IMG/VR virus record: IMGVR_UViG_3300042860_000188 | Location: 1-23,346 of that record | Length of the DNA: 23,346 nucleotides | Source of the DNA: a virus | Strand: one strand, 5' to 3' | Shown here: piece by piece, positions 2-971 of the stretch | Numbering within the stretch: position 1 is the first letter of the stretch | Layout of the letters: each line of letters begins with the position of its first letter | The notes under the pieces: model-generated | Database searches by the model: none | What the model was told of the DNA's origin: nothing | The model's input: only the letters and a program-made list of their open reading frames with translations | Made by a program: the position numbers and the translations under genes

Positions 2-745
2 CCGGCCGGCTACCTGCAGGTGGTCGAGCAGGTTCGAGGCCTGCCGGAGAACCCGGCCATCATCGTGGTCGACACCCTGCACCGATTCCTGGCCGGCGAT
101 GAGAACAGTGCCCAGGACGCCAAGACCATGCTGGACGCCTGCAACAGCCTGATGAACGAGTTCAACTGCAGCGTGATCTTGGTCCACCACACCGGTGTGG
201 CCGAAGAGGCCCAGCACCGGGCACGCGGCTCCAGCGCCTGGCGAGGCGCTCTGGACATCGAGATCAGCATCGTTCCAGGCAAGGACGACCAGCCAATGCA
301 GATCGTGCAGCGCAAGTCCAAGGATGCCGAGATGGCCAAGACAGTATTCGTTGAGCTGCAGCAGGTGACCATACCAGGATGGTATGACGAGGACAACCAG
401 CCTGTGACCTCGGCAATCATCGTCCAGTCGCAAGCCCCAACATCATCAAAGAAGGACGGCAAGATCGACAGCCATCGCAAGACATTTGAGAACGCCTGGT
501 GGGCATCTGGTGCCGAGGAGCGCAACGGCCAGCCATACCTCAGCAGGTCGGCCATGCTGGACTACCTGATCCAGAAAATGGATGTCAGCGAGACCTCAGC
601 CAAGCAGTACCTCAAGCCAAGCGTGCCAGGAAAACCAATCTCAGACCTGTTGACAGCCGAGATCATCGAGGCCTTTGAGCATGGCTGGCTGGTGGTCAAT
701 GAGACTCATGCAAGTTCCATGCTCATTCGCAAGTCGGAGAGATGA
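2..745 (+). CDS. RecA-fold AAA-family ATPase, probable phage replicative helicase/RepA-like protein (5' truncated)
   Basis: The frame is open from the left edge, so the N-terminus, including the Walker A loop, lies outside the window; the GTG at 20 is simply the first possible start inside it. Visible are a hydrophobic strand ending in Asp (AIIVVDTLHRF, Asp codon at 71-73), fitting Walker B, then SVILVHHTG and the Arg/Ser motif ARGSSAWRGALD. These are typical of RecA-like ATPases of the RepA/AAA_25 type found in phage replication modules. The last third (about 470-745) is mixed helical and looks like a winged-helix DNA-binding tail. The likely role is a replicative helicase or helicase loader. 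The position directly before a region with DnaA boxes and repeats supports replication. The family call is fairly secure; the exact role is inferred. Confidence 0.72.
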   Translation, partial: PAGYLQVVEQVRGLPENPAIIVVDTLHRFLAGDENSAQDAKTMLDACNSLMNEFNCSVILVHHTGVAEEAQHRARGSSAWRGALDIEISIVPGKDDQPMQIVQRKSKDAEMAKTVFVELQQVTIPGWYDEDNQPVTSAIIVQSQAPTSSKKDGKIDSHRKTFENAWWASGAEERNGQPYLSRSAMLDYLIQKMDVSETSAKQYLKPSVPGKPISDLLTAEIIEAFEHGWLVVNETHASSMLIRKSER

Positions 746-751
746 TTATGG

Positions 752-772
752 TTATCCACAGACTTATCCACA
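752..772 (+). promoter_or_regulatory. Two tandem DnaA boxes (TTATCCACA)
   Basis: TTATCCACA occurs at 752-760 and 764-772, same orientation, 12 bp apart start to start. Both match the strong DnaA-box consensus TTATNCACA exactly. They begin 7 bp after the stop of the ATPase gene. Two exact 9-mers this close, with a third in the same non-coding gap, are unlikely to be chance. They suggest recruitment of host DnaA, or DnaA-linked regulation. Confidence 0.65.
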
Positions 773-782
773 ATCATGGAAA

Positions 783-890
783 GGTAACAGGTAACTGTGA
801 CGTAAAAAAACGTAATGAGTTACCTGGGCAAAGGCTGCGTTTAGGGTAACGTAACGTAATCCCCCCCTTTAGGGGGGGTTACCAGTTACC
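783..890. repeat. GGTAAC/GTTACC and ACGTAA short repeats (iteron-like)
   Basis: GGTAAC is at 783-788, 790-795 and 845-850. Its complement GTTACC is at 819-824, 878-883 and 885-890. The doublets 783-795 and 878-890 are 7-bp-spaced tandem copies in opposite orientation and match each other at 12 of 13 bases. ACGTAA is at 800-805, 810-815, 849-854 and 854-859. The arrangement looks like binding sites for an initiator or regulator. Hexamers are short, so the case rests on density and the paired doublets. Confidence 0.55.
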
Positions 891-891
891 C
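844..891. repeat. Long imperfect palindrome with C7-TTTA-G7 hairpin
   Basis: Seven C (861-867) and seven G (872-878) flank a 4-base TTTA loop, giving a perfect 7 bp GC stem. The outer arms GGGTAAC (844-850) and GTTACCC (885-891) are complementary and extend the structure imperfectly. No U-tract follows, so it is not a classical terminator. It may be a single-strand initiation or cruciform element of the origin. Confidence 0.6.
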
Positions 892-941
892 AACGCTGCG
901 GCCAATTCCATAACCAAGGCCATATAAAAAGTGGTGAAAAG

Positions 942-950
942 TTATCCACA
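942..950 (+). promoter_or_regulatory. Third DnaA box (TTATCCACA)
   Basis: An exact TTATCCACA in the same orientation as the pair at 752-772, lying 21 bp before the next start codon. With the other pair it brackets the repeat and hairpin region. Confidence 0.6.
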
Positions 951-971
951 GGAAAGTAAGCAAGCACTAAC

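Follow-up and report, generated by a model that had tools for sequence, protein, structure and literature searches.

Iterons of a putative tailed-phage replication origin vary together with the predicted winged-helix tail of the adjacent primase-helicase

Introduction

Does the repeat-rich gap that separates a replication gene from the packaging genes of an environmental tailed phage serve as an origin of replication, and if so, which protein would recognise it? The question is raised by a viral contig (IMG/VR record IMGVR_UViG_3300042860_000188, positions 1–23,346), the whole 23,346-nucleotide stretch of which was analysed and is hereafter called the window. Between an open reading frame that ends at 745 and a small one that starts at 972, the gap 746–971 contains three DnaA boxes, six copies of GGTAAC/GTTACC, four of ACGTAA and a GC-rich hairpin. 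A sequence-only reading of this DNA had listed these elements, all of which were found again in place, and had proposed a candidate origin beside a replication ATPase, using a DnaA-box mode of replication distinct from that of P22. Comparison with relatives, structure modelling and analogy with known replicons together make it very probable that the gap is indeed a tailed-phage origin, but one whose initiator would be the upstream primase-helicase itself, with its predicted tail on the GGTAAC iterons and DnaA in an accessory role.

Results

A dense repeat cluster follows a primase-helicase gene

The clustering of repeats in 746–971 is far above chance (Table 1). Matches to TTATNCACA in the 23.3 kb window are confined to the three DnaA boxes (0.36 expected), and GGTAAC/GTTACC occurs 12 times in the window against 3.8 expected, with half of the copies lying within ~110 nt. 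Positions 826–903, considered as single-stranded DNA, fold much more stably than shuffles (z −3.8), giving a long hairpin of nested stems.

Table 1. Coordinates of the primase-helicase tail and of the repeat region in the window.
Feature	Positions	Strand	Basis or remark
Toprim_3/AAA_25 (RepA-like) primase-helicase, C-terminal 247 codons	2–745	+	Pfam AAA_25, E=4.6e-12
C-terminal stretch with predicted winged-helix domain, proposed iteron-binding (origin-binding) domain	398–742	+	AlphaFold2
Predicted recognition helix (model residues 65–72)	590–613	+	AlphaFold2; column association
Gln637 codon (L003 numbering)	605–607	+	inside predicted recognition helix
Codons 643–644 (Val-Pro), loop past recognition helix	623–628	+	switch together with 637
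DnaA box 1, TTATCCACA	752–760	+	exact match
DnaA box 2, TTATCCACA	764–772	+	exact match; 11–12 nt spacing kept in relatives
Iterons 1 and 2, GGTAAC-A-GGTAAC	783–795	+	copies at 783 and 790
Half-type repeats ACGTAA on either side of A-tract (ACGTAAAAAAACGTAA)	800–815	+	ACGTAA at 800 and 810
Iteron 3, GGTAAC	819–824	−
Conserved block GGGCAAA, between both iteron groups	826–832	+	109/222 relatives
Long imperfect hairpin, closure CTGCG/CGCTG, iterons 4–6 inside	833–901	+	counterparts across relatives
Iteron 4 and overlapping half repeats, GGTAACGTAACGTAA	845–859	+	GGTAAC at 845; ACGTAA at 849 and 854
Apical hairpin, GTAATCCCCCC-CTTTA-GGGGGGGTTAC	856–882	.	GC-rich, arms 856–866/872–882; in relatives stem retained, sequence varies
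Iterons 5 and 6, GTTACC-A-GTTACC	878–890	−	copies at 878 and 885
3′ conserved block of long hairpin, CGCTGCGG	894–901	+
DnaA box 3, TTATCCACA	942–950	+	exact match; ~180 nt from box 2 in close clade

The open reading frame at 2–745 encodes the last 247 of the ~671 residues of a primase-helicase, the 5′ part of the gene lying outside the window. A full-length homologue (L003), which matches the part encoded in the window at 100% identity, carries Toprim_3 and AAA_25, so that primase and helicase domains are joined in a single phage protein, as they are in relatives. The helicase profile matches RSF1010 RepA (1g8y/1nlf; E=9e-7, residues 323–503), and the domain has, as judged from its sequence, the characters of a RepA-like hexameric RecA-fold ATPase. 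Plasmid records match either the primase or the helicase part, and none covers 80% of the protein. The last 115 residues, modelled by AlphaFold2 with 94 relatives, are predicted to adopt a winged-helix topology (core pLDDT 94–98); Foldseek/VIA searches with this model gave, among the matches listed, only generic winged-helix neighbours (Z up to 7) and no close structural family, and a PDB sequence search with the tail profile gave no match.

The primase part varies in phage ct3Oc712 (L085/L370), where Prim-Pol/PriCT_1 stands in place of Toprim and helicase, tail and array are retained. Together with L219–L287 it makes up a subfamily with a RepA-like helicase, the tail, an iteron array and a Prim-Pol/PriCT_1 primase, which on domain content is a modular primase swap.

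Downstream of the repeats lies a 60-aa ORF (972–1154) with no Pfam or PHROG match, followed by TerS, TerL and the P22-type genes for portal, scaffold and coat. In Idiomarinaceae phage 1N2-2 (L372) the same replication module is found beside head and tail genes of a non-P22 type (prohead protease, tape measure), indicating that the module moves between virion types.

Iteron arrays and hairpins recur behind the gene in relatives

Relatives were collected as ~360 loci from IMG/VR scans, a genome scan and a phage collection, and counts are given over their 222 distinct downstream gaps. An array, defined as at least five copies of one GG-hexamer in the 270 nt past the primase-helicase gene, is present in 180 of the 222, as compared with 0/222 for shuffles and 4/222 for control stretches from the same loci. 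The hexamer itself differs: the window has GGTAAC, phages 90% identical in the primase-helicase carry GGGAAC or CGGAAC, and more distant ones GGGGGC, GGGTCA, GGGACA, GGTACG, GGTCCG, GGTACA, GGTTCA, GGTAGT and others, the hexamer register of the GGAAC/GGACA types having been chosen by the analyst. These switches between lineages are coherent, i.e., many copies are altered together.

The apical hairpin is likewise kept as a structure, with long perfect stems of differing sequence (at least eight pairs in 125/180 relatives, 1/180 when shuffled), and a GGGCAAA/GGGGCAA block stands between the iteron groups in 109/222 (shuffles 11). In some CGphi29-like relatives (~18; L144–L181, various) no GG-hexamer array is recognisable within 1.5 kb downstream, and residue 637 of the primase-helicase is Arg or Gln.

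Hexamer type is coupled to residues of the predicted tail

When GGTAAC (n=18) and GGGAAC (n=21) relatives are compared over the whole primase-helicase, only two positions separate them perfectly, 637 (Q versus V/T) and 644 (P versus T/N/K), with 643 coming third. Over 62 units of all iteron types, the column most strongly associated with iteron base 3, out of 651, is residue 637 (z 14.4; the next column, 9.4, is in the same helix, and the top five also include 633, 636 and 643), and in a CTD-only analysis it reaches z 23 versus 8.5 for the next, these mutual information z-scores being computed regardless of kinship among the relatives. A tree from which the CTD was left out shows 12 switches between the GTAAC and GGAAC types, at least 7 of them on well-supported branches, and Gln637 follows the iteron type in 5.6 of 7 independent pairs and the opposite never (p ~0.03).

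The same residue reappears further afield, Gln637 being found in distant relatives with GGTA-type iterons (GGTACA, GGTACC, GGTACT, GGTAGT and GGTATA). A clade with Lys637 has GGTACG together with Ser643-Ala/Thr644, and GGTCCG together with Tyr643-Pro644. There are exceptions: at 637, three GTAAC-type relatives carry L, M or V, and several iteron types occur with K or N. The observed association suggests that residues 637 and 643–644 determine, by contact with the DNA, which hexamer is read.

As tail and array are adjacent, hitch-hiking had to be excluded as the source of this association. L007 and L012, which differ in iteron type, are distinguished past residue 560 at 637, 643 and 644 only, and mismatches number 2 over the final 100 nt of the gene and 58 over the 200 nt that follow; the same switch at the three residues, plus a few changes upstream at 576–603, separates L013 from L008 and L016. 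In two further relatives the gene and the array have been driven apart with the origin intact, by an insertion of ~280 nt containing a short ORF between the helicase stop codon and the array (L044) and by one of ~860 nt (L036), and both arrays are GGTAAC, as Gln637 predicts. The near-identity, in close pairs, of the DNA from the switching codons to the iterons led us to reject linkage or cassette exchange as a full explanation, although more distant pairs such as L030/L033 may have exchanged a larger block as a cassette. Iteron binding by the tail thus has indirect support from this apparent coevolution, and the earlier proposal of an origin beside the ATPase is well supported: the architecture is conserved, and the repeats appear to coevolve with the DNA-binding tail predicted for that ATPase.

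DnaA boxes are scattered across the family

Host DnaA could instead be the main initiator, opening the DNA at its three boxes and leaving the GGTAAC repeats a secondary role. The three exact boxes do form a cluster of high-affinity sites, and their spacing is conserved in the GGTAAC/GGGAAC clade nearest to the window, where two boxes lie 11–12 nt apart after the stop codon, ~180 nt ahead of the third, and the boxes mostly share one orientation; the GGGTCA group still has boxes, on the opposite strand. However, at least one box is found in only 79 of the 222 relatives and at least two in 49, so that 143 with the same gene have none in the region, whereas the iterons (180/222) are a near-constant feature that tracks the phage protein rather than the host. 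A DnaA-driven origin therefore appears unlikely, and the boxes seem to be an optional accessory with positions fixed in the window's clade. This leaves the DnaA-box mode of the sequence-only reading half standing: the boxes are real and keep their places among close relatives, but are missing from many others. The phage seems to supply an initiator of its own and in that respect resembles P22, which uses other proteins.

Cumulative GC skew does not single out the region as the origin. Detrended skew has its minima 2–5 kb upstream of the region in six of eight genomes; in the other two, which include the closest relative, they fall far away (combined p 0.13). Undetrended minima, which fell at the region, were discarded as the map had been rotated to start there, favouring its ends.

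Packaging or transcription control is improbable

The proximity of the terminase genes raises the possibility of a packaging (pac/cos) site for the small terminase, which starts at 1151 in the window, and TerL starts within 3 kb in 53 of the 54 relatives with a recognisable TerL. Against this, in Alteromonas phage XX1924 ~5.5 kb separate the array from the downstream terminase, an array without a window-like TerL occurs in 55 relatives for which at least 2.9 kb of downstream sequence is present (a more divergent TerL could escape this count), and the repeat type goes with the helicase tail, all of which makes packaging a very improbable function.

Equally hard to credit is transcription control, whether through an array of operators bound by a Cro-like repressor or an autoregulator, or through an RNA element or terminator of the helicase operon: a Cro/XRE-like gene does lie directly upstream of the primase-helicase in relatives and the hairpin is strong, but the region has no promoter-like site, no terminator-like T-run at the hairpin and no Rfam family above gathering score, the array lies on the 3′ side of the gene and is preserved where inserts separate the two, iterons are clustered nowhere else in the eight near-complete genomes checked, and specificity maps to the helicase tail.

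Discussion

A probable self-contained origin read by the helicase's own tail

The gap is most likely a self-contained origin, P4-alpha-like in function and recognised by the tail of the helicase, because the iterons behind the gene change with residues of the predicted recognition helix. The C-terminal winged-helix domain would bind the GGTAAC iterons, with 637 and 643–644 setting the choice of hexamer. Binding on either side of the GGGCAAA block could melt the DNA and so place the RepA-like hexameric helicase domain, and the hairpin would then turn single-stranded, allowing the Toprim domain to lay a primer there. In this clade only, host DnaA on the three flanking boxes might aid opening or helicase loading. 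These steps are modelled on P4 alpha at its iterons and on RSF1010 RepC, RepA and RepB′ at iterons and ssi hairpins.

Relation to known replicons

In P4 alpha, according to PMC4234260, which cites Ziegelin & Lanka 1995 and Yeo et al. 2002, a Toprim primase, a helicase and a C-terminal winged-helix origin-binding domain are combined in one protein. The window's phage shares the single fused primase-helicase with a winged-helix tail, here predicted, and the nearest anatomical parallel to its array is P4 crr, a set of short repeats in either orientation just past the alpha gene (+ + − − +, compared with + + − + − − in the window). The two differ in that P4 has an extra, separate ori in place of a single region, in that the repeat type varies among the relatives of the window's phage, and in the three DnaA boxes of the window, none being annotated in the P4 record. 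Furthermore, the helicase part of P4 alpha has D5_N and Pox_D5 and no AAA_25, while the window's protein has AAA_25 and neither of the others. The tail gave no match to P4 alpha by hhalign against the single P4 sequence, and the P4 origin-binding domain (PDB 1KA8) is absent among the structure matches listed for it. We therefore make no claim of homology to P4 alpha, whose helicase part belongs to a different family.

The oriV of RSF1010 (IncQ) combines iterons with stem-loops, priming taking place at an exposed hairpin (PMC4234260). The likeness lies in the RepA match of the helicase domain and in the pairing of iterons with a hairpin; the difference is that RepA, RepB′ and RepC are separate proteins, whereas in the window's phage a single polypeptide combines the helicase, the primase and the proposed iteron reader, and that the primase is of Toprim type. 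For pRN1, the same source describes a non-coding stem-loop just 3′ of the rep gene, conserved in structure and not in sequence. A primase-helicase with a winged-helix tail and a stem-loop just 3′ of its gene are thus common to pRN1 and the window, but the pRN1 protein has an archaeo-eukaryotic primase and an SF3 helicase, and there are no iterons.

The principle of an initiator tail that coevolves with iterons is already known. In geminiviruses the iterons vary along with the iteron-related domain of Rep (PMC12548392), and in PLE satellites the recognition region of RepA_N varies along with element-specific iterons (PMC8263062); both are precedents for the principle only, their proteins and replication modes being unrelated.

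Implications

No description of this phage replication module was found in the open-licence literature. For a module that is widespread among environmental phages yet uncharacterised, and that occurs with P22-type as well as other virion genes, the present analysis proposes an initiator and an origin and predicts a specificity map. It also provides a natural set of closely matched protein–DNA pairs, some differing at only three tail residues, in which a change of binding site by a replication initiator can be studied, and phage contigs could be sorted by predicted origin compatibility.

A broader proposition, to which we give slightly less than an even chance, is that environmental tailed phages share a diversifying lock-and-key of origin and initiator, in which the winged-helix tail of a fused primase-helicase would change its iteron specificity by ~3 residues (637, 643, 644) and so define ~20 possibly non-interfering origin types, by rules perhaps readable from sequence. 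If so, the pressure behind it would be the avoidance of cross-recognition by co-infecting phages or of origin-directed defences.

Finally, the 39.7 kb contig of L040 carries two such replicons ~33 kb apart (L385/L386), one with GGGGCA-type iterons and Asn637 and the other with GGGAAC-type iterons and Val637, which may represent two prophages in tandem, a chimeric assembly or a single phage that has two origins.
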